A model generated the notes under the pieces. That model worked only from the letters and a program-made list of their open reading frames with translations, did no database searches and was not told the origin of the DNA. A stretch of DNA of 64,000 bases from Scatophagus argus (Eukaryota > Chordata > Actinopteri > Scatophagidae): contig NC_058512.1 in the NCBI RefSeq assembly GCF_020382885.2, positions 5,668,802 through 5,732,801 on the forward strand, read 5' to 3'. The position numbers were made by a program, and so were the translations under genes. The stretch's first letter is position 1, and every line of letters starts with the position of its first letter. Shown here one piece after another: positions 12,756-64,000 of this stretch.

Positions 12756-15700
12756 CTGTAGATGATGCAGGCACAGTCCCTGCAGGTCCCACAGTTCTCA
12801 ATGTCCTGTCCGGTCCTGTAGGAATGTCTTCTGTTGAAAAGCACAGAGATGACATATCAGGGGTAAAAGAGTGACATTTTTTGTGTGTGTTTGTGTGTTT
12901 ATGGTAAGACATTTATCATTTCCTTTTTCAAACTGAATTTCTGGCACACACTTCCCTGCAAATATACCAATATCCTCTCTGAAATCACCCCTGATAATTT
13001 TTTAATGAACGATACCCCTTCCAACAGGCGCGGGCTGTTACATAAACCATGAGTCACTATATTACTCCAGGCCTAAAATAATGCTTATGAGGTAAAAGTC
13101 AAGTCTGCATGCATTAGCCCCATCACTGAGCTCTTACACACGAGATATGTCACTTTATGAGACAGAAGGCCGTGCAGTCACATGTTCAAATGTCTGGAAA
13201 ATATAGTAATGGCATTAGGGTTAACAGTGTGATTTGGATTAGGCTGCTCAGATATCAGTCAAGGCTTTCCATGGATTCACAGACACACATCCATCCATGT
13301 CTATCGTTTCCTATCCAAGAGTTTTCTCGTCCCTGCATCGTGTACTATTTTGGTGTGATAAGGCGGGAGAAATTACTAAGCAGCTTACAATGTAGGAAGC
13401 AGATTAATTAAAGACTTGATGAGAATGGTAAAGGGTTTACACTAAGAGGCATGGCAGCATATGAAACCACCAACATGATGACAGCCAAATGCTGATTCCT
13501 ATCTATCCCTGTCTGCTGCATGTATGCATATGGAACGAGCTGCTGCAAAAGGGGTGAACACCAAACTCCCAAAGTGCTCCCTGTGGTTTGACACCACATA
13601 AATTTGTGAGTGAGATCGAGAGTTACACGACTGACAAGAGACTTCCCAAAAATAATTAAAGCCGCTCCCCTGCCTCCTGTCTGTTACTCACCCTGCTGTT
13701 TTAGCCACTTCTGCCTCTCTTGTCTCCTCATTCTCACCAAATTTACATTGTGTTCTGTCCACACAGCTTTGTTGCCCGAGTATTTACAATGCTTATAATG
13801 CTGGGATTGGCTATAAATAGAGGAACTGCATCACAGCGAGGCTTAGGCACAACAACCATAATATTCACAGCACATGATGCAGTGAGGTTATTACTGCTGG
13901 GTTGTGTATTCCCCTTTTTGAAGAATAATCTGCCTAATACAACCCACTTGTCTACTCCATTCTAGCAGAGAGGAGTGCAAGGCTATGATCACATCATCAT
14001 GTCTACCCCTCATTTGTTTTTCTCTGAAGGGAACTAGATTCTTAGTTGAGAAATTAACTGTCTGGGATTAAAACGGCAGGCGCTTAGGCTACATGCTGAC
14101 ATTTACTTCCCAGGTCTCCAAAATACCAGGCACTCATAATTTACATTGTCCCGGCTTTCTTTCTTTCTTTCTTTCAAGAGTTAAAGAGTTAAAGAGCGGT
14201 GGACTGAAAGTTAAAGTTGACCACAGTTTACCTGTTGGTTTTTCACACCACTCTTGCCCCTGGGCGGACAGCCCCTGTTAGCCCTGGGTTTACGGCTCCA
14301 TTAGCCTACGGCTTCCAGTCATTTCACATTTACAACTTCAAATGTGGGATAGCTCCTCTCTTGGCTCAGGGCTTTCACACTTCATTTAAACCTAGACAAA
14401 GCCCTTTCAGAACTCTTGATTTAACCCTGGGGTATGCAGCATTTCACACTACTGCTAACGTTATACCTTTGAACACCACCTAGGACAGTGTGATCCTGGG
14501 TCATCTGCCCTACCATGTGAAACACCTGGGAGTCATTTTTAATAGGAGTGAAAACAATCCAATCAAGTAAAAAAGCAAAACAACAAAAAATCCCCAATAA
14601 ACAAGAAGTTGGGAGGAGGGAGCATTTCTTCAGGTACCCATGAGACATCTTTATATTAAAGAGATATTGGATACCCGAAAGTTATGACTCCATTTTTTTG
14701 TCATGATGTTTGTGTTACATCATAATCCTTTTTTGGGGGGAGATTATGATGCCCCCTGACACCACTGTGTCAGAGGGCTGACCATATTCAAGTGAATAAA
14801 AGGACTTTTTTGATGCAGGTTGGTCTAAACGTGGCCTTTGGTCAACACCAGGGCTAATTAAAGGAGTTGGAGAACAGGAGTAGAGGACAATTAAAACAGT
14901 TGGTATTGGTATAACTTTATACTAATATAATAATAGTAGTAATAGTAATAGCAATAAGTTAATAGTCAATATTGAGGCATTACCTTTTCATTCTTGTAAT
15001 ATAAACAGAACTGTTCAACCGAAATAAAGCATTGGCTCACCCGTCTCTCTCGGCTTCTTTCTTCTCAAGGTCTTGAATGACATCCAGTAGAACCTTAATG
15101 GTGTTCTGGCTGGTCTCCAGAACCCCTTCCAGGCTGTGCAGTTGGTTCTGCAGGCTGCGAATATCATGTAGGGGTCCATTAGGACTCAGCAGCTTTTCTG
15201 TCACCCTGGATGGGTCCAGTTTACACCTGGCCCCAGACACCAGCCCTCCCAGAATTTCTTGGACTTGTCTTAGTGTGTCAGCCTGAGTGGCAGACAGGGG
15301 CCCAGCTGTAGGTCGCTCCCCCGAAGCAGCGCAGCCCCTGGCTCCAGAGCAACCCTGCTGGTTTGGAGGGAGTGGGTGTTGGCTGTTGGGGGTGTTGGGC
15401 CTGGAATTGGCTCCTGAGCAGAGCATTTTGTGTAGTGCCCCAAGCTGAGCCTGGGCTGAGCTGAGACAGCTGGGTTTAAAACAGGCCTTGGCGGGAGAGG
15501 AGGAGGAGGACTGTTTCTCTCCCTTCATCACAGCAACTGGTGGAGTTTGAGCTCTGTGCTTCAGAGAGCTGGCTCTCTCACAAAGCTTGGGTGAGTCTGT
15601 ACATTTTACATCTTCCTTTTTCTCATCCATGTCTTTATCTTTCTTAATGGCCTTGCTGTCTGCCCTGAGCATGGGTGTTCGGATTGTAGGACCTGGTGGA

Positions 15701-18012
15701 TCACTTCCCTTTTTGCGTGGTGTGTAGGGTGGAGGTGGTGGGGGAGGAGGTGGAAGTCGAATGCCCCTCTTATCCTGAGCATTGTAGGGGGCCTGAGAGG
15801 GGGGGGTGTATGGTGGCGCAGCACGAAATGTGGAAGAGTACAAAGGAACAGCTTTAGTTGGTGTTGCACACAGCTGTGTATTTGGAACAGTGGACGCATA
15901 TGTTTTCACAAGTGGAGGCGGAGAAGTGCAAGATTTCATTCTGGGGACTGGAGAGGCGTAAGGGGTAATTCCTGTGTTAGCAGCAGAGGTATTTTGCAGA
16001 GCTTGACATGGGATGTTGCAATGAGATACAGTTTGTATGAGAGTGGCATAAGAAGGTGACGTAGAGTTTTGTTGAAGGCCATGGGGACCAATTGGATGTG
16101 TGGTAGAGTAGTATGATATGGAGGTGCAAGACAGGGCAGTTTGAGTTGAAAATGTGCAGGGTGTTAGATTTGTAGGAGGTGTAACATTTGTGGCATTATG
16201 TGGTGGTTGGTGTGTAACATTTGGAACAGTGGTTGGATGTATGGTAGGATCAGAGGGAGTCGCACTAGGGGTTGTCGTTGGGGTAGGGGTGGAACAGGTC
16301 AGGGCAATTGATGGTACTACATTTGAGATAGGGGAGGTACAGTTTTGGGTGGGGCAAGGTGGTGCAGTTGAGGAAGGACTGGAGCAGACCGTAGCTGTGT
16401 TGGGGGTTGTTGGTGGTGACACAACTGTATAATAGGGAATGGGGTGTTGGACGGTAGTACAAGCAGAAGTAGAGGAAGGAATGGACAGTTCTGTCGGTGG
16501 AGGTGGGGTGGTGCAAGCTGGCTTGGCTGGAGAGGAGAGGGGTCGCTTAGAGCAGTGTTCAGGGGTCTGTGTTGGTGCACTTGTGGTTGGGGGAGAGGTA
16601 CAGTAAGGCACAGTAGTTATTTGAGTGTCAAGAGGGTCTTGATTCGTAGTTGGGGGTGCAGGACTCTCAGATTGAACTGGCATTGAGCTGGATGATGCTG
16701 GCGGAGGTGGGGAAGCACAAGGGCTGCAAGTTTGTGTCTGCGTAGTGCAAGGCTGATGATTTGCAGGAGAGTGACAAGATGAGTCTGTTTGTATTTCAGT
16801 GGTGCACTGTTCAGCATTTGGAGGTAGGGTTGGACAAGAGTGGATTGTTTGAATTTGAGTTCTGCGTTGTTTGTCACTCAAAGGTGAAGAGTGATGCTGA
16901 CTGTCTGTTTGACTTTGGGCGGTGCAATACTTTGAAGTTAAAGGTGTGGTGGAGCTCTCAGTTTGAACTTGAGTGGTACAGAGTTTGGTATTTGAGGGTT
17001 GTGGGGATGGACTGGGGCTTTCGGTCTGAGTGAGTGTGGTACAGTAGTGCACTTCCTTCCCAGGATCACTTGTCGTCCTATTCAGCCGCTTTCTCCTCCT
17101 CACCACAGAAGGAGTGCTGCTTCCCTGACGCTTAGGGCCATCTCGACAGGATACAGAGGAAAAATGGCATGGCTCAATGTTATGAAGAACCGAAGGGGGG
17201 CAGCTGTGCCTTGAGTTTTTTACAACACTAACTGCTGATTTGATTTCTGTCCTGGAGGCTTTAGACCTCCGTTCTACCACAGTTCGATCCCCAGGCCCAG
17301 GAGGACCATTCTGATCCTTGGATCCAGGCAACAACACATGGTTATGCGAAACATACTCATCTTGAGAGTCATGTTCATCATCCCCATCCACACCCACTGA
17401 GTCCCCAAGGCTGTGGCTACGTGAATGTGTTGAAGAGAGAGACTGGGGCTTTTTCAGGCATGGGGAGGTTTGAATTGCTGTGCTGGTGCTCGTACTGGGC
17501 CTGCGTGTCATTGGCAAAGTTAGGGAGTTAGTCTGAGGTGGTGCCCAGCATCGACGTGTAGGACCTGGCGTCAGTGGATGAGGAGGGGCCCTGGCTAAGA
17601 AAGCAGCCACCACCTCTATAGTACTTGCCATGTCCCCACGCACAGCTCCCACCACAGAGGTTTGGCCAGGCAGACCCTCAGCTCGTGGCCCATCCCTGTT
17701 AATCCATGGCTGGGGGGACCTACTGCTGTGTTTGCGAAGAGGATGTGGGCTGTCACAATCTGTGGCAGGCCTCTGATGGCTATTGTTTTCTCCTGTTCCA
17801 CTGTTGCCACTGCTGCTGCTGCCATCCTCCAGGTCTTTAAAACGGACCTGATGGGTGCGGTTGCGGCGCCGCTTGAGGCGGCTCTCAATATCTGGGGAGT
17901 CTCGATTGAGCAGCACAGAGCGCACAGTCATTGTCCCGGGCAACTTGTCTGCCAAGGTGCTCTTGCCGTTGGTTTGGCCTGTGAGCAAGTGACTGGGCTC
18001 TTTGCTCACCAT
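12756..18012 (-). CDS. insyn2b: Inhibitory synaptic factor 2B-like (FAM196B family), 5' two coding exons, partial
   Basis: Coding exons read on the minus strand are 18012-15041 (start ATG at 18012-18010; 990 codons plus 2 nt; donor GTGAGC) and 12830-12756 (acceptor CAG at 12833-12831; donor GTATG). The phases join cleanly into ERDG-RHSYRTGQDIENCG, followed by a CxxCRDCACIIY block that is the hallmark of the INSYN2/FAM196 family. Residues 29-57 (VRSVLLNRDSP, then QVRF) resemble INSYN2B more than INSYN2A. Residues 176-186 hold the family IQTSPxLKK motif, and residues 909-989 form a predicted coiled coil ending in VLLDVIQDLEKKEA. INSYN2 proteins are known components of the gephyrin/collybistin inhibitory postsynaptic complex. 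Exon 1 is unusually long: residues 321-740 are Cys/Thr/Ser/Pro-rich repeats including an LC8-motif ladder, and residues 754-762 are nine prolines. The C-terminal exon was not found down to position 1, so the gene is open at the left edge. The choice of B over A paralogue is less certain than the family. Confidence 0.88.
12831..15040 (-). other. Intron between the first two coding exons of insyn2b
   Basis: The intron is bounded by GTGAGC (complement of the bases ending at 15040) and CAG (complement of 12831-12833), about 2.2 kb, with matching phase on both sides. It contains a short CTTT tract near 14157-14176 and an AT-rich stretch with imperfect TAA-type repeats near 14921-14960. No second gene was recognised in it. 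Confidence 0.8.
15727..16662 (-). repeat. Degenerate Cys/Thr/Ser/Pro-rich repeat region and polyproline tract in insyn2b exon 1
   Basis: Residues 451-762 continue the low-complexity array with recurring C-(T/S)-x-P style units (for example around C471, C500, C558, C573, C629, C695 and C715). Further isolated QT motifs occur at Q492, Q624 and Q660. The tract ends in nine consecutive prolines (residues 754-762) followed by a basic segment. I recall no segment of this length in mammalian INSYN2 proteins. The composition suggests a disordered linker. The polyproline could bind profilin, SH3 or WW domains, but nothing in the sequence decides between these. Confidence 0.7.
16663..17052 (-). repeat. 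Tandem ~20-residue coding repeat with QT (LC8-type) motifs inside insyn2b exon 1
   Basis: Residues 321-450 contain LTQTES, QVQTES, QSQTDS, QIQTIH, EIQTDS and QTQTCS, with the central Gln at residues 329, 350, 368, 388, 408 and 427. A degenerate PVQSES follows at Gln 447. The steps are 21, 18, 20, 20, 19 and 20 residues (54-63 bp). Most units also carry a Cys-Thr pair a few residues upstream (C324, C345, C363, C403, C422). The (T/V/I/S)QT(D/E) core matches the known recognition motif of dynein light chain LC8 (DYNLL1/2). LC8 binding itself is inferred. Confidence 0.85.
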
Positions 18013-35200: not shown

Positions 35201-38200
35201 GCTGAGTGCCCGAGCATCATTACAAACTCTGCTGCTTGTGCCGTTCGCTCGTCAGGCTCCTGGGTCGAGCTGGAGGAGCTGATCGCAGCCGTGAGCCGCA
35301 GGGAGAGTCTGACCGGGCCGGAGGACAGCATCTCCTCCACCCTGCAGGGGGAGCTGGAGAGGATCCTCCTGGAGGCCCAGCTCGAGTGTGAGAGGAGTAG
35401 AGACAGGTAATGATGCACTTTGCCTGTGTGGGTCTAGTTTTTTGGCATGCACAGTAATGAGCTTCATTCTGTGCTCTGTGGATCTTTAAGTTGTTTTTCA
35501 CAATACTAAACCCACAGTGTAAAAGTCTGCTTGTTGTCCACCAGTCCTCCACAGGTCGGGACTCCACAGTCCACCGGTTCTCCAAGACCCTCTAGTGAGC
35601 AGGACAGTGACTGTGTCCCCATACAGGTATTCATTTTCATATGTTGTTAATATCCATTAGATTACTTCATTCTCCTTTGTGTAAATATTAAAAAAAAAAA
35701 TACACACATTTAATTTTGTTGTGCCCATTAACTACAAAATACACACAATATATTTGCATTCAGTTCATTTTACGTTATTGCTGACCGATTGCCAAATGGA
35801 AGAGGAAGTTTTTGTATTGATTTCCTCTTTCCCAGCCATCCATTTCAGTACAGTTTCAAATCAGCTTGCAGAGACGTTAAGCTTGCTAGTGATAGGCAAT
35901 CTATCTCTTTTAAAATATTGTTGAGATCCAAGAGAGAGTCAGATGAGTCGTTTTCTGTTTTATTGAACTGTGCTTGAGCAGTTGCTTCTTGCTAAATGGT
36001 TGTTTGAGATTTCCCCCTGAAGATTTACAAGAGTTGTTGTAAATGTGTTCAAATTGAATCAGTATCAGTAACGTAGATGTGCTGAGTCTGCACTAGTCGC
36101 TGTACTCCCCCCTCCTAACATTCTCTTGTGTGTATGCTGTTTTTCCCCGACTATTGCACATCATCTGATCATTTATCCATGTTACAGGAGGAAAGTGAGC
36201 GACGAGGGGACACTGACTGGGTGTGGGATTGGTCCAGTAGACCTGAAAACATCCCACCAAAGTAAGACCAGCGTGTTTAAAGTCATTTATTACATTTTCT
36301 ATTATATTTAATTATGTTTGCTACTGCTACATCCCCAAGCTAGAGTTCTGTTAAGTATCCACAGAGAGTTGTATTTCAAAGGTGTGTCAAAAGAATAATA
36401 CTTTTTTGACTATTAGCTTAGCTTAGCATAAGCACTCAAAGCTGAGGAAAACAGCTAGCCAAGCTCACCCTAAAGCTCATAACTCTACCAAAGAGCACCT
36501 CTAAAGCACACCAGCTAACATGTGGTATCTAGTTTGTCTCTATACTGACTCTCTATACAAACAGAAAAATAAAAACAACAGTTTGTTTTGTGTTATGCAG
36601 TTACATGCCGTTACCTGGAGTTGTGAGTCTTGTCATCACTGTGAGGTTGCCAGAGGAGACATTGGCTTGTTTGTGAGGAGTTAGCCTACATAACAAATGT
36701 ATTTATATTTGATTAAAGAAATGTCTTTTGGTCTTTGGCAGTGGTTGACTAACGAGGCCTCTTTCAGTTGCAAAATCCCCCCCCAAAAATTAGGATTTTG
36801 TTGGTGTCTAGTGCGCCTCATCAGTTTGATTTTGACAGCAGGTTCGAATGCCGTGTTTTAAATTTTGTTTATACCTTTGAGTGTTGAGAAATGCATGAAT
36901 CACTCTCGTTTTTTATTTACACTGCCATGCTTGACATTTAATCTTCTGCAATACAATAAGTCTATTTGACAGCGAGTAGCTTTAATGGTCTCAGACTCTC
37001 AATGCCTCGCTACCTTTCAGCATTCTCAGTCTTCTCTCTTGTGTTCTCATTATCTCTGTTTATTTTTTTTTTCCCTTTCTATCTTCCCTCTCCTCACATC
37101 TCTTATCTCTGGCTCCTTATCCTCCTCTCCCTCCTTCTCTCTCTCTCTCACTCTCTCTCTGCAGAGAGTTTGTGTTTCAGCACCCAAAGCAGCAGGGCTC
37201 CCTCAGCGTGAGGAAGACAGAGGTGATGAAGAGAGGTATCTTCTCCTCCGATGTCCTCCTCCTCCTTGGTCCCTCATTGCTGGCTTCACACCTGCTCACA
37301 CTTGGAGTCGGGTGAGATACACACACATATATTTGCATATAAACTCACTTTTTATCCATTTTATTTTATTTGAAGTTAATGTCTGAAGCACCTGTATTAA
37401 AACGCTGACAGCTACACTAAGTCCCACCTCCCTTTAGTTACTGGTACAGGACAGAGATCCTAACATTAGCTTCACCATCCCTGCGTGCACACACAAATAG
37501 TACGCAGTAATTGTGCTGTTTGCAAACAAGTCTTTTTTTCAATGTAATCTCCACAAACTAACATAGGGGATTAAAGATCCAGTGTGAGAATTTAGCGACA
37601 ATTTGCAACCAACTGAACACCTCTCGTTTTATCCTCCTCTGTGGTGTTTAAAAACACGAAAGACCCTCTCCAGAGCCACTGCTTTTTTTTTTCTTTATTC
37701 TGAGGACATTTTCTTGGCCTGCCCTTATCTGAGTTAGGTTGGTTACCCCTCGCCTCTGTTAACTTTGTTGGTTAGTTTTTTATCATGAGGCGTGATGATT
37801 GTCGGGGTTATGATAAGAATATCAAGCTCAGGCCTATTCAAAGCATATCAAGTACTGCCGTTTTGGCACATCCCACAGCGTCTCATCCAGATGCTGAAGG
37901 GATCCACGTATCTGGATGAGAGGAAACATCAGTATCAGATGATCAGAGCAACTGCACAGCGCGGCATTGTTTGTCCCAACAACGGTGGAGGTCTGGGTTG
38001 AGTGGTGGTTCGCACGCTCGACTTCCACTCAAGAGACTGCAGCCTGCGTCTCGTGTGAAACCGGACTTCACTGATCTTGTCCTAAAGCTAACCACACACT
38101 TTTTGTGCCTAATCTTAACCAAAGTGATGTTTCATTTTAAGTAAGTGTTAGAGAGGCATTGTGGCAGGAGGCCTGGGCATCTCTGTACATGTGAAAGGCT

Positions 38201-51270: not shown

Positions 51271-54200
51271 TCTCTCTGTCTGACCCCTTTTCTAAGGCCC
51301 GGCCCCTCCAGAATTCTCTTTTTTGCATGAGCAGAAGTGTCATCAGACCTAAAAACTTTCGTGGAGAAGCCCTGTGAGAGCCACATACATTTTGCAGCTT
51401 CACCAGCGCTCATGTCCTCCTTTCTGCAGTGTCAGTTTAACCCCTGCTTCCCTGGAGTGAAGTGTGTCAACACTGCTCCGGGCTACCGCTGTGACGCCTG
51501 TCCGCTGGGCTTCACCGGCCTGCCAGTGGAGGGTGTGGGAGTTTTGTTCGCCCAAACCAACAAACAGGTACAAGATTGGATGAAATATGGAGGACTTTTT
51601 ACACAAAGACTAGAACATAAAACAGGATGCAAAGTACACACTAGATCAAAGGAGACATGAAACATCATTATAAAAATGGTTTCCCATGTAATCTTACTGC
51701 ATGAAAATACAGGCCAACACTTTATATTACAGCCCTCAAAAGGTGGTGTAATTATTGGATCGATTATTGGGTAGAGAATAAGATGACATAAGAGGAAAGA
51801 AGTGTAGGAGGGTTCCTTTATTACAGTGCAAGTCTGGGCTATGTGGCCAGTAAAATATAGTGGTCCCTTGTTCATCCCCTATTTTAAGGTTATAACAAGT
51901 AAATATTGAAAACGAGGGCTGGATATTTCACATGTAACAGGTAGTTTTAAAGGTACTCCAGGTCCCTGATAGACACAATTTATTTCTGCAAATTCTGCAA
52001 AAATGCATTATTGGTGCTTCAGTGCATAGGTGGTCACAATTTGACCTTTTTAGAACTTTTAAAACTTTTTTAAATGAACCACATGAGATTGCAAATCTGT
52101 CTGGTAACTATTTCATGTGAAACATGACCAGGGGCCCCAGCTAGATTTTCTGTAAGGGTTCACAGACCAAAAAGACCGAGGGCTACTGGTTTAATCTTTG
52201 TATTACATTTGGTTAACATTTGTTTTTTGAAATAAATAAATATAGTGAAGTCAAAAGTACAATAAAAAGTACAATTTTACCATCTGAAAGTAGTGGAGTA
52301 AAAATACAGAAAATACATAAAATGGTAATACTCAGGTAAAGAGGAAAGGTGTGTTTGCATTCATAATTTTGCCCATTTCAGGTGTGCGACGACATCGACG
52401 AATGCCAAGGACCCAACAACGGAGGCTGCACTCCAGATTCACAGTGTCACAACACTGAGGTAAGACTGTTGTCAAATATTATCTGGACACCACTCACGGT
52501 TTATGCAGGTCATCGTGTTTTTTCATTTGTGTGGCTTAACAACTGCTGTCCAAAGAAACCGTATGTCCTCATTCCACACAGGGCTCCTACCACTGCGGCA
52601 GCTGTAAGACAGGCTTCACAGGAGACCAGGTGAACGGCTGCAAGCCAGAGATCAGCTGTGGCAACAGCCTGACCAACCCCTGTGACGTCAACGCTCAGTG
52701 TCTTGTAGAGAGGGACGGGTCCGTCTCTTGTCAGGTGTGATTTCACGCTTCTTTCACTCAAAACTTCGCACACATCGTGACTGACTTTCTGAAGGGTTTC
52801 ATTTGTCTTGTCAGTGCGGAATTGGCTGGGCCGGTAACGGATACCTGTGTGGGAAGGATACAGACATTGATGGATACCCGGATGAGAAACTCAAATGTAA
52901 AGATGTAAACTGTAGAAAGGTAGGCAAAGGGCAAATTGTCAGCAAATGCAACTTTGTTGTCATAGACAGGCCTTTATATTTTCATTCTTCATCTGTGACA
53001 TCTCTTCACAGGATAACTGCATCTACGTTCCTAACTCGGGTCAAGAGGATGCCGACAGGGATGGTCAAGGAGACGCCTGTGACGAGGATGCAGATGGTGA
53101 TGGTATACCAAACGAACAGGTTGGTCTGAATAACTAAAGTGTTGCTTAATGAGTGGGAAAAAATCTCCTTCCTCTTAAACTAAATAAACAATTTAAAAAC
53201 CCTCTTGGATTAGCTGGAAAAAGCAAAGTAAAAGAAGTACTTCTTCCACTGCTGCTGCAGATAATCGCATGCACTCACAGAAATACACATGCTGTGAATG
53301 AGACCTTTGTGCTGTCCGTCTCAGGACAACTGCTGGTTGAAGCCCAATCTGGACCAGAGGAACAGCGATAAGGACAGCCACGGCGACGCCTGTGATAACT
53401 GTCGCATGGTGGAGAACCCTGACCAGAGGGACACTGACAGTGACGGCAAAGGGGACGCTTGTGATGATGACATGGATGGAGATGGTATGGAGAGAAATTA
53501 CATCACTAACACTGACGCTCGCACTTATATAACTGGCATCACTGAAGGCACTCAGTGTTGTGACTTCACATCTCCACCCTGCTATTACACTCAATTATTC
53601 AAGAATCATACTCATGTAGGCAGATTTTTATTTAAAACAAAAACATTTTCAAGAAACATATCATATATAGGAGTATGGGAGCTTTTGTGAGCCAGGTGAG
53701 GCATGAGGAACAGGAAATATATTTATATATAAAGTCAAGGCCAATTGCAGTCTGACCCCAAAGCGAAACTGAAGCTTTGATCATTCACCAGTATGATTAC
53801 ACCCCAAAACGCCCCACAGGAGAGAAGATAGTTTTTCCTTATCTCTGCTGTTTGACCTTTATGTATTTGTGGTGCTGCTGCTGCCTCCCTGCGATGAATG
53901 AAAAACATCATGTGAACACAAACCGGTGTTCGCAGACATAGCAAATGCAACATTGCAACCTAGTGGCGAAACCTCAAATAATACATCATAAAATCATTTA
54001 GCTGATCGAACTGTAGTATGGGTACAATGTCTCAGCTCCCCTATGCATTCATTAAACAAATATAAATCCATTTAAGTTTTATTTTATTTCCATTGTCAAA
54101 AAAAGGCAGTTAAATGACTTGTTTTACAATAGAGCTGCAACTAACCATTATTTTCATTCATTCACAAAGAAGTGACAGAAAATTGTGGAAAATTATCAAA

Positions 54201-57200
54201 TCGGTTTCCTAAAGCCCAAGGTGACATCTCTAAGTACCTTGTTTTTGTCTAACCAATGGTCCAAAGCCCAAAGACATTCACTTTACTGCCACATGAGAGA
54301 AATGTGACTGTTTATCAAAATTGGTGCAGATGATTTTGTTCCACATACCCATGGAGTCAGACTGACTGCCAACCAACACAAACCATCTCCTCCTCTCTTG
54401 ACGTTTGGCGAGCAGGCGTGAAGAACTTTCTGGACAACTGTCAGCGTGTCCAGAACAGAGACCAGCTGGACCGGGATGGAGACGGCGTGGGAGACGCCTG
54501 TGACAGCTGCCCCGACATCCCCAACCCAAATCAGGTTAGTCACTGCGAGATGAATAGCTGTGGTGGGAAATACCTACATTACATTACAATAGTACATTTA
54601 ACCAAGTTTTTTGAGATACTTATACTTTGCTTTGGTATTTATTTATTTATTATTCGGTATTTATTTGCTATTTCTTTCGGTATTTTTGTGCTTATACTTA
54701 TACTTGCATTCCACTACTTTTCCAAGGGCAAATGTTGTACTTCAGGGATGGTTTCCTGTAAATAATCTAAGATGTAGCTAAGAAAAAGCAAATATTAGAG
54801 AAAAGTCAGAAAAAAATACACATTTGTGCCTTTTCCCTTCTTTGCTTCCACATTAATCATCTCTGGTTGTCTCTTTTGATGTACATGTACAAGTACCTCT
54901 GATTGATAATACCCTTGTACTTGTTTAAAGGATCTAAGTACTTCATGTGTGAGGAAGTGGTGCTTTTGGTGAACTCTCTGCTCTTGTTTCAGTCTGATGT
55001 TGACAATGATCTGGTTGGAGACTCCTGTGACACAAACCAAGACAGGTAGAAATATTGTCACATTCTGCAGATATCTGACCTGTTTTTCAACAAGAGCCAG
55101 TCCCACAGCTTTCAATTACATCGTGTTTCACTTCCTCTGTAGTGACGGAGACGGTCACCAGGATACCAAGGATAATTGCCCACTCGTGATCAATAGTTCC
55201 CAGCTGGATACTGACAAAGACGGTCTGGGTGACGAGTGTGACGACGATGATGACAATGATGGGATCCCTGACATTCTGCCACCAGGACCGGACAACTGCC
55301 GGCTGGTACCAAACCCTGACCAGACTGACGACAACAGTGAGTGCTAGTTTCAGATACGAGCACTCTCAAATACCACACAATCAAAACATGAATGTTTAGA
55401 TATTATTGTTCACATCTTTGGCTGAAAGCAATCTTGACGAATAGAGATAAACTTTCACAATTTCATCTCCTCGCCGACATTCTCCCTGAACTGTTCCTGA
55501 CTAAACATTATGTGCGTTATTGGGCCAAAGTCTCACACCCACACAGATCAGGTAAAAAGTGGAAGATTAAGCGGCAGTTTTTGTTGGGTAAAAATGCCTG
55601 CATGTGCACCCATTTGTGACTCACTGGGACAGTACTTGTGTAAAAATGGGCTCTGAAATCAGTGGGAGTGGAGTGTCAATTTAAATTAAGTGGGAGGGAC
55701 AGTTTTTGATAGAAGTTCAGTGATGGTAAGTGGACAGACCTTCAGGATGTCCCAAACAATCTATATCTATATTTGTGCTTCTAAAATCACAGTTTAGAAA
55801 TGGCCTTTTTATCCAAATGTGGTCAACAGTTTGGAAAATATGAAAACAGAAAAAGTTTATTTGCCTCAGTAGGAGCTTAGTAAATTAATAAGGATGTCCA
55901 TGTTGGGAAAGATATTCATGCATTTTCCAAACTGAGAAGCAGTAGCACACACTGAGGTTTGTATGCCAAGAATCATCAAGAAAGTCTGCGACCTTTTTGA
56001 TGTCATAGCTGTTGTACTTTCACAGCCTTAATCAGTCACTTATTTCCTTCCATTTTATAATCCATATCATTGAACAGATTCTGAACTGTACGTGACATTT
56101 TACAAGGAACAAACAACACGCACTGTGCCAGAGAATTGACACCATAGTACTTTTTTTTAGCATGGCCAAAGCAGCACAGTATTAATTTAATTCTGATAAC
56201 ACACTCACACGGCAGGATGCAGATTGAGCTTCAACACGATCAATCAAAATTACATCAAAATGCAACACACATTCTTGTTACTTTAACACTCCTCCCTTTA
56301 AGAAAGGACATTTTTTGCATATTTGGGATATTTTATATTCAGGCCTTGCAGCTCTGCATCCTCATAAAAGAGACATCAATTTTCTTCAGAGGCAGGCCTT
56401 TTTGACGTTTTTGTTGAAGCTAAAATCTCCTCAATGTGATAAGACAAAACACACAGGTTCTTAAATGGAAAATGAAAGGAGTGCATCGTTTTGCAGTTGG
56501 CACAACACAATCTAGTGTCTGTAATCAAAAACTAACTTTTAATAAGTTCCTGCACCCGTAGCTGGATCGCAAAACAGCAATCCTCTGTCTTTTTGCACTT
56601 TAAGACTAAATCCCTTCACTGTTGTCCCTCAGATGATGGTGTTGGAGACATCTGTGAGTCCGACTTCGACCAGGACAAAGTGATTGACAGGATTGACAAC
56701 TGTCCAGAGAATGCTGAGGTTACCTTGACTGACTTCAGGGCCTATCAGACGGTGGTCCTGGACCCTGAGGGCGACGCCCAGATTGACCCCAATTGGGTTG
56801 TTTTGAATCAGGTGAGATTACTGTTGATGCTGCAGCTTTCCTCTACATGTGCAGTGGCTACAAGTTAAAGCTTGCTATAATCGATATTTTTTATGATAAC
56901 AGTGGCTCAAATGAAAATAGGAGAGTTGCTTGCAGAACATTATCCCCTGAATGTGCACCTTCCTTAGGCTTTATGGAGCTTGAGTCTCAGCAAATCATTT
57001 AGCTGTCTGGCTCTTAACTTTACTGGTTTGGCTCACTCTCAGCACTTTTACAGCTTGGTTTTCAGCCGCAACAGGCAACTGTTCTCCGCAAAAAAGCTCT
57101 AAAAACCCATAACCTTCTCAACACCAAACAGTGGACAGACACTAGTTAGCAACTAGCTGGTGAACAGAGTAGCCCTTTTAGCAGCTAAAGAGTCTGATAT

Positions 57201-58870
57201 CTCCTGCAGGAGTTGGTAGAGACCAGACACAGAGCTAAAATAGAATTAAAATTGGGCTTGCATTCATTAGCCACATACACAACTCCAAATGATGGATGTG
57301 AAAACAAGCAACTATTTGCTAGTAAGCTCACCATATCAACTTAGAGGAAAACCCATTTGTTAGCTCACAGTTGGTTTTCACTGCCCCCAAACGGCCTAAA
57401 AACAATCAATGACTGCAGGTTTAGTCCATTACTAAAAACTAAATATACAGTACAGGCAAAACAACTTGTAAAAGGCTTAAAATATAAGGTGCAATTCATA
57501 ACACTTTAGCAAATGAAAGTGCAGAATTAGCTCATTAACTCTCTCTTTCTTACACAGGGAATGGAAATTGTTCAGACCATGAATAGTGACCCTGGACTTG
57601 CTGTTGGTAAGATGAATTTCTTGTTGTTGAATATTGAATCATGAATGTACACAATGTTCTCTAAAGAACTCATTACACTTTGTCTTATCAGGTTATACTG
57701 CTTTCAGTGGAGTAGACTTTGAGGGCACCTTTCACGTGAATACAGTGACTGATGACGACTATGCCGGCTTCATCTTTGGCTACCAGGACTCGTCCTCCTT
57801 CTACGTAGTGATGTGGAAGCAGACTGAACAGACCTACTGGCAGGCAACACCCTTCAGAGCTGTGGCTGAGCCAGGCATCCAGCTTAAGGTGAAAGTACAA
57901 GTCATGTCACAAATCCCCAGCAGCAGATTCATACCCATCCTATTTTTATCCCACAACATATCTCCTACATTTCTGCCCTTCTCTTACCCGCCTGCTACCA
58001 CATTCCCATCTCACTTCTCTTTGTCTTGTTCGTCAGGCTGTGAAGTCTAGAACAGGCCCCGGGGAGCACTTGAGAAACTCGCTGTGGCACACGGGAGACA
58101 CCAATGACCAGGTTCGTCTGCTGTGGAAAGACCCAAGAAATGTGGGCTGGAAGGACAAGGTATCCTATCGTTGGTACCTGCAGCACCGCCCACAGGTTGG
58201 ATACATCAGGTACAACAAAGCTGCTAGATACAGTAGTTGTCTACATATTGGTAGATGAATAGTTTGATGTTTTGGGAAATTCACTTATTCTCTTTCTTGC
58301 CAAAAGTAAGATGAGTAGATTGTTATCATTCTCATATTGGTCTGGTCAGTATGTGGCTGACTGACCGGAAAGAAACTTCAGACCTGGGACATGCAGCACT
58401 GATTAAATCCCTTCCTGTGTTTTATTTAGGGCACGGTTTTATGAGGGAACTGAGCTGGTGGCCGACTCTGGCGTGACAATTGACACGACCATGAGAGGAG
58501 GACGACTTGGTGTTTTCTGTTTCTCTCAAGAAAACATCATCTGGTCCAACTTGAAATACCGCTGCAATGGTAAGGAAACACTTAATCAAGAATCCATTTA
58601 CATTTATACCTGATTTACAATTTTTTTAACTATTGTGATGACATGCCAGGGAACACTTGGCTTGTCTTTTTGCTACTCTCAAAGCATTTTACTCGGGTCT
58701 GAAAAGCGGGAAAGTATTTAGTGCTTGCATTTTGTCTTTCTGTTGAAGCAGCAATTATAGATGTTAATAGAATTAGCTTGTCTCACGATACCTCACTCTT
58801 TGCTTCCACAGACACCATCCCAGAGGATTTCCAGGAGTTCAGCACTCAGCACGGCGTTGACTCGCTCTAA
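46340..58870 (+). CDS. thbs4b: Thrombospondin-4, complete, 22 coding exons, 940 aa
   Basis: Coding exons: 46340-46418, 49570-49767, 50073-50323, 50445-50547, 50723-50805, 50921-50972, 51075-51226, 51430-51567, 52382-52459, 52582-52734, 52815-52919, 53012-53119, 53325-53484, 54416-54534, 54993-55045, 55143-55336, 56633-56811, 57558-57606, 57692-57888, 58037-58209, 58430-58569 and 58812-58870. All borders are GT-AG, all phases agree, and the total of 2823 nt ends in TAA. Order: signal peptide (residues 1 to about 25), laminin-G-like N domain, coiled coil ending in SECQACG (pentamer-forming cysteines), four EGF-like modules, calcium-binding type 3 repeats (DxDxDGxGDACD), and the lectin-like C domain. 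The C domain reads almost like human THBS4 (for example [20 protein letters not shown]). The protein is a secreted matrix pentamer of tendon, muscle attachment and heart. The short coiled-coil-to-EGF linker ([12 protein letters not shown]) fits teleost thbs4b as I remember it. The a/b label is less certain than THBS4. Confidence 0.95.
46419..49569 (+). other. Intron 1 of thbs4b
   Basis: The intron separates the signal-peptide exon from the N domain, from GTGAGT at 46419 to CAG ending at 49569. It contains CA-rich simple repeat near 46591-46615, a dispersed repeat at about 47800-48085 and nothing recognisable as an exon. First introns of matrix genes often carry enhancers; none can be identified here. 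Confidence 0.8.
47800..48085 (+). repeat. Dispersed teleost repeat copy in thbs4b intron 1
   Basis: Blocks aaaaatctctaaaaactcg, ataacttctcagtgccaaac, agccagatactttggtggag and accaaaaatagagctaaaag match the intron 17 copy at 56865-57430 in the same order. Confidence 0.7.
49850..50025 (+). repeat. Dispersed teleost repeat copy in thbs4b intron 2
   Basis: Blocks ttcagctcgctgttttggtt, catctaaagagtcagataa, tcagcaatttggtggagacc and aaaaactgcaacc are the same family as the copies in introns 1 and 17. It fills much of this 305-bp intron. Confidence 0.65.
51240..51267 (+). repeat. (GT)n microsatellite beside the exon 7 donor of thbs4b
   Basis: The run starts only 13 nt after the exon 7 GTAAGA donor (51227-51232). 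GT/UG runs this close to a 5' splice site can bind CELF- or TDP-43-type splicing factors. Confidence 0.95.
52200..52345 (+). repeat. AAGTA-rich dispersed repeat in thbs4b intron 8
   Basis: Blocks agtcaaaagtacaataaaa, gtagtggagtaaaaatacag and taaaatggtaatactcaggt are typical of a very common fish repeat built on AAGTA/ACTCAAGTA units. Related reversed sequence lies in intron 14 near 54570-54950. Confidence 0.55.
54570..54950 (-). repeat. AAGTA-type dispersed repeat (reverse) in thbs4b intron 14
   Basis: Gagatacttatactttgctt, tatacttgcattccactact and gtacatgtacaagtacctct read on the minus strand as the same AAGTA/ACTT-rich family as at 52200-52345. The copy is degraded. Confidence 0.45.
56865..57430 (+). 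repeat. Long copy of dispersed teleost repeat in thbs4b intron 17
   Basis: This is the fullest copy in the window. Blocks include cttgctataatcgatatttt, ttcagccgcaacaggcaact, ctctaaaaacccataacctt, agctaaagagtctgatatct, gagttggtagagaccagaca and acaactccaaatgatgg. Shorter copies are in introns 1 and 2 and at 22570-22760. Confidence 0.7.
58252..58370 (-). repeat. Dispersed repeat copy in thbs4b intron 20, 'tttgggaaatt' end
   Basis: Gaatagtttgatgttttggg, aaattcacttattctctttc and ttgccaaaagtaagatgagt correspond to the opposite strand of the family at 1803-1965. The copy lies between exons 20 and 21. Confidence 0.6.
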
Positions 58871-63442: not shown

Positions 63443-63819
63443 ATGGACAACAGCAACCATCCCTCATATGAAGAAGCTCCAGCTCGGTCCCTCCTCTTCA
63501 GAGCTGTTGGGCTTTTCACTGGAGACATGCATCTCTGCAGAGAATGGGTGAAAAGTAGGTGATGATCTTATCTTGTCTTCTCTGATGAAGACAGCTGATC
63601 AAACTGAAGTCACTATCTATCAATGACAGGACAGGTTGTGGTAATCCAGCTGCTGGACTGGATTTTCCGAGGAGTGGCCCAGGTCATGTTCGTCAACAAC
63701 CCTCTAAGTGGGCTCCTCATCACTTTAGGTCTCTTCCTGCAGAACCCTTGGTGGGCCCTGAATGGTCTACTGGGTACCCTTGTGTCCACTGTGTCTGCCA
63801 TCTTACTGGGGCAAAACAG
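63443..63819 (+). CDS. slc14a2: Urea transporter (SLC14 family), first two coding exons, cut by window end
   Basis: Exon 1 is 63443-63554 (37 codons plus 1 nt, donor GTAGGT). Exon 2 is 63630-63819 (acceptor ending CAG at 63629, donor GTCAGA). Phases match, giving [22 protein letters not shown], the same spacing I recall for fish urea transporters. Exon 2 then reads [16 protein letters not shown] and [17 protein letters not shown], both signature stretches of the first membrane-spanning half of UT proteins. These are passive urea channels; fish members act in gill and kidney. The rest lies beyond 64000, so length and paralogue (slc14a2 versus other fish UT genes) cannot be checked. The sequence just before the ATG ends in an acceptor-like ttcacag, so an upstream non-coding exon is possible. 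An alternative phase-2 join at a later donor also avoids a stop but adds residues unlike the family. Confidence 0.9.
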
Positions 63820-64000
63820 GTCAGATAGCATCTCCCTATCCTTATTTGACTTCATCATAGATGAAAAAAAAAAACATTTTCCTCCCGCCAGGAAGCCATT
63901 ATTACTGTTTGTTTCACTTATATTCCCCGGGGCTCCATTTTCTTTAGCTTTCACACTGTGCTATTTTCACAGTTGTGTTTTTCACTTAATTGTGTTTTGC

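Follow-up and report, generated by a model that had tools for sequence, protein, structure and literature searches.

The first coding exon of an INSYN2/FAM196-family gene of Scatophagus argus encodes a ladder of six Gln-Thr (QT) cores spaced 18 to 21 residues apart. The ladder is real, non-random and conserved. We give a probability of about 50% to the reading that it is what has been best preserved of an ancient tandem array, within a long disordered protein of the INSYN2 family, and that its units offer weak docking strands for the dimeric dynein light chain LC8. The protein would then be a new candidate among multivalent LC8 clients, a kind of protein already known.

The stretch of DNA analysed (the window) comprises 64,000 nucleotides and corresponds to C20:5668802-5732801 of the 570.7 Mb genome. 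On its minus strand, the open reading frame from the ATG at 18012 forms the first coding exon (15040..18012, residues 1-991), which is 100% identical over these 991 residues to P0001, a predicted S. argus protein of 1077 amino acids. FAM196 (PF15265) is the sole Pfam match of the window protein (40.6 bits against a cut-off of 27, E 3e-10), bearing out the INSYN2/FAM196 membership claimed in a preliminary description of this DNA. The database label of the protein is 'mucin-5AC'; the Pfam scan found no mucin domain in it, and the label probably reflects composition. A short second coding exon (HSYRTGQDIENCGTCRDCAC; FAM196 profile 407-428) lies on the minus strand at 12758..12826, with approximate borders: a genome profile match at C20:5681559-5681624 equals 12758-12823, and matching words run from 12826 down. 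The last exon (C20:5663803-5663991) is located ~4.8 kb beyond the window edge. It provides a CFWFL C-terminus after basic residues, present from chimaera and shark through percomorphs in most of the full-length rows listed, and this basic-aromatic end with one Cys might serve as a membrane or lipid anchor. The plus strand of the window also carries a BNIP3-family exon (35225-35407, Pfam E 2.6e-8), exons of a thrombospondin gene (TSP_3, TSP_C; ~53300-58050) and a urea transporter exon (63608-64000).

The Gln residues of the ladder fall at 329, 350, 368, 388, 408 and 427 of the minus-strand translation, exactly as first described. The six slots read CTTLTQTE (Q329; 17020..17043), CTTQVQTE (Q350; 16957..16980), CTAQSQTD (Q368; 16903..16926), RRTQIQTI (Q388; 16843..16866), CTTEIQTD (Q408; 16783..16806) and CTTQTQTC (Q427; 16726..16749), all on the minus strand. 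The residue before Gln (-1) is T, V, S, I, I and T in this order, and the residue at +2 is E, E, D, I, D and C; both descriptions given earlier, T/V/S/I before Gln and mostly D/E after Thr, agree with the translation, the acidic residue being found in 4 of 6 slots with Ile at 388 and Cys at 427 as the exceptions. Position -3 holds T, T, A, T, T and T, and -4 is Thr except for Arg at 388. The steps are 21, 18, 20, 20 and 19 residues, leaving linkers of 13, 10, 12, 12 and 11 residues (spacing minus 8), and a further step of 20 leads to the degenerate seventh unit SSMPVQSE (Q447; 16666..16689, minus strand), whose core is VQS. Composition-preserving shuffling of residues 321-455, 301-790 and 1-991, 20,000 times each, with the core [TVSI]QT and steps of 17-22, never produced a chain of six; the even spacing first noticed in the sequence is not due to chance. 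Four further cores on the same strand had escaped that first description: 181 AIQTSP within TSTAIQTS(P) (17464..17487), 482 PTQTPE within TSAPTQTP (16561..16584), 624 STQTAL within CTFSTQTA (16135..16158; CTFVTQTA is commonest in other fish) and 660 LIQTVS within YATLIQTV (16027..16050).

Conservation was assessed in 111 aligned fish proteins of at least 940 residues, drawn from the best 120 of 236 matches; 9 shorter proteins were left out, several of which lack much of the array. Three protein searches gave 236, 732 and 941 matches, the best 120 of each being used, and in the rows sampled the otocephalan (zebrafish-type) orthologues are represented by a Clupea fragment alone. Slots 329 (Q and T both 111/111), 350 (Q 105/111, T 109/111) and 368 (Q 107/111, T 105/111) are nearly invariant; 408 (Q 99/111, T 94/111) and 427 (Q 94/111, T 86/111) are mostly kept, and 388 has decayed in most fish (Q 58/111, T 34/111). 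At 447 the +1 residue is Ser in 75/111 rows. Outside the ladder, Q181 (Q and T 111/111), Q624 (Q 111/111, T 109/111) and Q660 (Q 107/111, T 110/111) match the best slots, and I180, Q181, T182, S183 and P184 are all invariant; Q482 is kept in 86/111. Mean entropy over columns -1 to +2 is 1.05 bit for the six slots compared with 1.77 for the linkers (p = 0.0002), and 0.56 bit for the four best slots (p = 7e-8); the cores of 329, 350, 368 and 408 are far more conserved than the linkers. The comparison of orthologues suggested in the preliminary description thus turned out with QT cores kept above linkers, slot 388 excepted. Conservation at positions -5 to -2 is close to that of the core (mean 1.09 vs 1.05 bit, six slots). 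For slots 329, 350 and 368, the conserved stretch roughly coincides with an LC8 strand (-5 to +2), and -6 is fairly well kept too. Each of these three slots retains its own -1 residue (T in 110/111, V in 105/111 and S in 102/111 rows, respectively), and this position is looser in 408 (I 76/111) and 427 (T 77/111). Slot 329 of S. argus has Leu at -2, where most rows have Pro (78/111). Cys occupies -5 of the six slots (residues 324-427) in 80-107 of 111 rows, with Arg at slot 388 in S. argus, a regular Cys kept in an array otherwise devoid of mucin features.

The six-rung form of S. argus is a minority state, since the longest unbroken chain (steps 14-24) reaches 6 or 7 in only 11/111 rows; it is 3 in 73/111. 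Counted with a wider pattern than the [TVSI]QT of the chain test, the stretch equivalent to residues 311-460 holds 3 cores in 12 rows, 4 in 24, 5 in 47, 6 in 25 and 7 in 3. Because slot 388 has decayed and 40 is the commonest long spacing between cores in the 111 rows, the usual arrangement in fish seems to be three rungs followed, after a gap of ~32 residues, by one or two more. Alternative splicing that removes the ladder was considered for gene models of Etheostoma, Perca, Pseudoliparis, Pleuronectes and Goodea and rejected: the borders differ between models, so that the array-poor models look like annotation artefacts.

The ladder forms the front third of a degenerate Cys/Thr/Pro-rich array with a period of ~20 residues that extends over residues ~320-790 (15643..17052, minus strand). 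Identity autocorrelation of residues 461-790 peaks at lag 20 (0.177; null 95% maximum 0.159), and in the ladder itself lag 39 comes first (0.25) and lag 20 second (0.202, null 0.200). Same-residue pairs between slots use different codons in 46 of 80 cases, which shows that the rungs are not fresh copies. Likewise, a recent minisatellite in S. argus was rejected, as inter-slot codons differ and Tandem Repeats Finder reported no 60-base array in the ladder, its only item there being a two-copy 11-base repeat (16671-16691). In Megalops P0145, lags 20, 30, 40 and 10 lead and CTSPPQTVPP-type units (Cys-Thr-Ser-Pro-Pro decapeptides) are found; Oncorhynchus relatives carry 11-residue units, salmonids having lineage-specific expansions of 10-11 residues. 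From the period running on to ~790, together with the repeat units of relatives, we read the even step as inherited from a repeat, with QT cores retained by selection on some units. P0138 (Oncorhynchus nerka) has ten GNPPCQTIP-type decapeptide copies, a lineage-specific expansion of the distal array. The notothenioid relatives P0081, P0087 and P0093 (1222-1391 aa) display extra IRPQTP units 61-65 residues apart, and P0102 and P0106 have IRPQTP-like units at wider steps.

An AlphaFold2 model, built from a 38-row alignment and of low confidence throughout, places residues 141-753 below a pLDDT of 50. The array region is thus predicted to be disordered, as judged from pLDDT rather than from a dedicated disorder predictor. 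A C-terminal helical region is predicted at residues 908-989 (15046..15291, minus strand; helices 908-929, 934-942 and 949-989), a candidate coiled coil; helix 949-989, for which such pairing may be considered, lies far from the rungs.

The S. argus genome contains five FAM196 loci: two INSYN2A-type (C10 and C21), a divergent pair (C12 and C14) and the window gene (C20). All five share an [I/V]QTSP site, and only the window gene carries the ladder; the C14 copy, which sits in a 1120-residue open frame, has none. Among the matches listed, 120/120 INSYN2A rows have [KR]STGVQTSP and a longest [TVSI]QT chain of 1. The [I/V]QTSP site also occurs in 81 of 86 non-euteleost INSYN2-like rows (95 rows, P0137-P0231, less 9 dropped as euteleost or fragments); of the five misses, two (P0216 and P0224) show altered forms, and P0220 carries the site but begins too far along for the pattern to match. 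For P0153-P0231, which include tetrapods, lungfish, paddlefish and cartilaginous fishes, the longest chain is 1 in 77/79 rows and 0 in 2/79. The ladder is therefore confined, among the rows sampled, to euteleost copies of the window paralogue. There it forms a graded series: one to four sites in the pike and salmon relatives sampled and three to seven in spiny-rayed fish. Seven of eight salmon/pike-group rows (P0124, P0125, P0126, P0128, P0129, P0136, P0151 and P0152) carry, in addition to Q181, between one and four QT units of the Cys/Ser-Thr type, one partial row carrying none, and 2 of 4 gadiform rows have three ladder units, the other two being partial models with none. In a small comparison, INSYN2A ranked behind the best BLAST matches listed for the window gene, which came from gar, turtle, newt, bird and shark and are either 'INSYN2B-like' or unnamed. 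Several birds (for example, Pelecanus crispus, Apus apus and Cuculus canorus) hold both types, indicating that the window-gene type is not INSYN2A. The name INSYN2B used in the preliminary description is thus plausible and not settled, with five FAM196 loci of which two are INSYN2A-type; the mammalian INSYN2B orthologue could be either the window gene or the C12/C14 pair. As synteny that might name the paralogue, a partial scan of selected window ORFs found no DOCK exon, and a genome search with DOCK DHR-2 lobe A gave 17 matches, of which one sits ~46 kb away from the INSYN2A-type locus on C21 and none falls on C20.

Among single candidates for a reader of the rungs, LC8 fits best, given the QT cores in predicted disorder, the linkers of 10-13 residues and the predicted C-terminal helix. 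LC8 rules and peptides were taken from PMC6607443, PMC5963919, PMC10046861, PMC12797016, PMC12057147, PMC3078936 and PMC12017986; PMC5746249 and PMC12187134 were also consulted. Our score is a rough one of our own making, distinct from LC8Pred, with a leave-one-out AUC of 0.79; at a cut-off of 0, it accepts 74% of the binders and 22% of the non-binders. It rests on 31 binders (29 with a Gln anchor and two TMT, including an ASCIZ site too weak to fit and one phage-selected consensus) and 27 non-binders; four weak binders were kept apart, and further tabulated non-binders, mostly lacking a Gln anchor, were left out. Four of the six slots exceed 0, in the plausible order 350 (2.37) > 368 (1.38) > 427 (1.20) > 408 (1.11), whereas 329 (-0.55) and 388 (-0.99) fall below. 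Q181, Q482 (-1.32) and Q660 (-6.07) are also poor scorers, and Q624 gives 0.32 in S. argus and -1.88 in the form commonest among other fish. At 2.10, the degenerate 447 shows that the score does not judge anchor defects. Across the 111 rows, the number of the six slots that have an anchor and score 0.5 or more is 0 in 1 row, 1 in 11, 2 in 28, 3 in 38, 4 in 29 and 5 in 4.

At the level of single positions the fit is mixed. The [T/V/I]QT anchor is present at 329, 350, 388, 408 and 427, slot 368 being SQT; of four SQT peptides in the score set, one is weak and three are non-binding. At +2, where D, E or P suits LC8, four of the six slots are acidic, and the Thr (Arg at 388) at -4 agrees with the polar residue favoured there; an internal Pro is disfavoured. 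LC8 prefers large residues at -3, large or basic (PMC6607443), and none of the slots carries one, a preference rather than an absolute requirement: small residues (S/T/A) occur there in 4/31 binders vs 10/27 non-binders of the score set (Fisher p = 0.063). Pro at -2 is found in the score set in 0 binders, one weak binder and one non-binder, and Ile before QT or QV, as in two slots here, in one binder and three non-binders. Linkers of 10-13 residues are compatible with an in-register duplex, the series being interrupted in most fish by the loss of 388, and fall between the favourable 6-9 and the possibly heterogeneous 12-16 residues described for ASCIZ (PMC10046861). Weak motifs can cooperate: single ASCIZ peptides have affinities of 7-20 uM in 6 of 7 cases, the remaining one being too weak for a fit, yet the seven-site domain gives 1.4 uM. 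In human ASCIZ, binding was abolished only once three SQT/VQT motifs had been mutated as well (PMC5963919). Thus the LC8 ladder first proposed is favoured by its QT cores, predicted disorder, near-ASCIZ linkers and conserved cores, and is disfavoured by the small -3 residues, the Pro at -2 in 329 and the SQT at 368. We regard it as plausible at about even odds, which is weaker than the preliminary description suggests. Among the open-access papers searched, we found none that treats INSYN2 with LC8 and none that pairs FAM196A with gephyrin. INSYN2B co-occurs with DYNLL1 in PMC12519442 and INSYN2A with 'dynein light chain' in PMC8074411, both expression surveys by title.

Sites 181, 624 and 660 are better kept than slots 408 and 427 yet have lower median LC8 scores, and LC8 alone therefore does not explain the conservation. 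We see a possible, if doubtful, alternative in a multivalent docking array for a partner other than LC8, one that also needs Cys, Thr and Thr at -5, -4 and -3: INSYN2 would have had one STx[I/V]QTSP-type site, and the teleost paralogue would have multiplied a related [S/T/C]-[S/T]-T-x-[I/V/T]-Q-T. The conservation of -5 to -2 alongside the core suits such a reader, as do sites 181, 329, 660 and the commonest form of 624, highly conserved yet with LC8 scores below 0. Furthermore, LC8-equivalent residues are seldom exchanged at -1 of slots 329, 350 and 368, each of which holds to its own (408 and 427 are less strict), and the single site persists throughout the INSYN2A rows listed and in nearly all non-euteleost rows. 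However, the INSYN2A version, KSTGVQTS, scores well as an LC8 site (2.66), and we know of no named domain that reads this QT pattern.

Two further alternatives were considered. The even step could come from a Cys-Thr-Ser-Pro-Pro-type decapeptide repeat, the region being mainly disordered spacer and the QT cores having no dedicated reader. Lag 20 at the top of the distal array, the leading lags of Megalops and the salmonid expansions agree with this idea, but the cores of 329, 350, 368 and 408 stand far above the linkers in conservation, and inter-slot codons have diverged where residues have not; we hold it to be improbable. Least credible, and very unlikely in our estimate, is a substrate block for ATM/ATR-type kinases, based on the usual definition of an S/T-Q cluster. 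Although several slots contain TQ or SQ, conservation also covers the Thr that follows Gln and the acidic residue at +2, and before Gln slot 350 keeps Val (105/111) and slot 408 mostly Ile (76/111); a synaptic scaffold would also be an unlikely ATM target.

If LC8 does read the ladder, its units, CTTx[T/V/S/I]QT[E/D]S, would each offer dimeric LC8 (DYNLL1/2) a weak docking strand, and an LC8 dimer would grip the same rung from two parallel chains. Occupation of the ~four usable rungs (350, 368, 408 and 427) would hold two chains together as a beaded duplex, and the C-terminal helix, a possible coiled coil, might help them pair. Binding at these rungs, for which the chances seem balanced, would be weak and dependent on avidity, and rung number would therefore tune it. 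The ladder resembles ASCIZ/ATMIN (7 LC8 sites in Drosophila, 11 in human) in its many QT cores, disordered chain, probably weak single motifs and some linkers of comparable length; ASCIZ anchors are mostly TQT at irregular spacing and have measured LC8 binding, whereas the candidate INSYN2 rungs are T/V/S/I-QT at a regular step. Nup159, whose 5 LC8 sites are flanked by FG repeats and a coiled coil, likewise places its motifs in a disordered block ahead of a helical region, and it appears as a stiff beaded rod in EM (PMC12017986); in the window protein the predicted helical region begins ~480 residues past the last rung. GKAP/DLGAP1 is also a postsynaptic scaffold with non-TQT anchors and a linker of similar order (17 residues), but has two non-canonical sites only and a measured Kd of 0.29 uM (PMC12797016); it belongs to an NMDA-receptor (excitatory) scaffold. 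The LC8 site of gephyrin, EDKGVQCE, shares the VQ anchor and the inhibitory synapse and differs in its Lys at -3 and in being experimentally reported (PMC12057147, PMC10913824). INSYN2A, the mammalian InSyn2, belongs to the same Pfam family and has the common QTSP site without a ladder.

The preliminary description also proposed that the protein may cross-link gephyrin complexes, which finds no support here: by analogy, the LC8 mode predicts a homotypic duplex, not an LC8 dimer that bridges an INSYN2 chain to a gephyrin chain. LC8 sites are present in gephyrin itself (PMC12057147), and LC8 binding raises gephyrin phase separation according to the review PMC10913824; a shared LC8-rich site without direct cross-linking could therefore occur. 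We infer a synaptic role of the window paralogue from its family, and the same review calls for functional study of InSyn1 and InSyn2. Tentatively, INSYN2 had one ancient [I/V]QTSP docking site, from which euteleosts may have made the graded series in one paralogue, building within a synaptic scaffold family a duplex rod, zipped by LC8, whose length changes in evolution with the number of rungs. Should LC8 read the rungs, the homologues would form a natural series of 1 to 7 evenly spaced sites, suited to experiments on the way valency and register govern LC8 assembly, and would offer a mechanism for an INSYN2-family protein. If the reader is not LC8, the family-wide QTSP site points to another INSYN2 partner.
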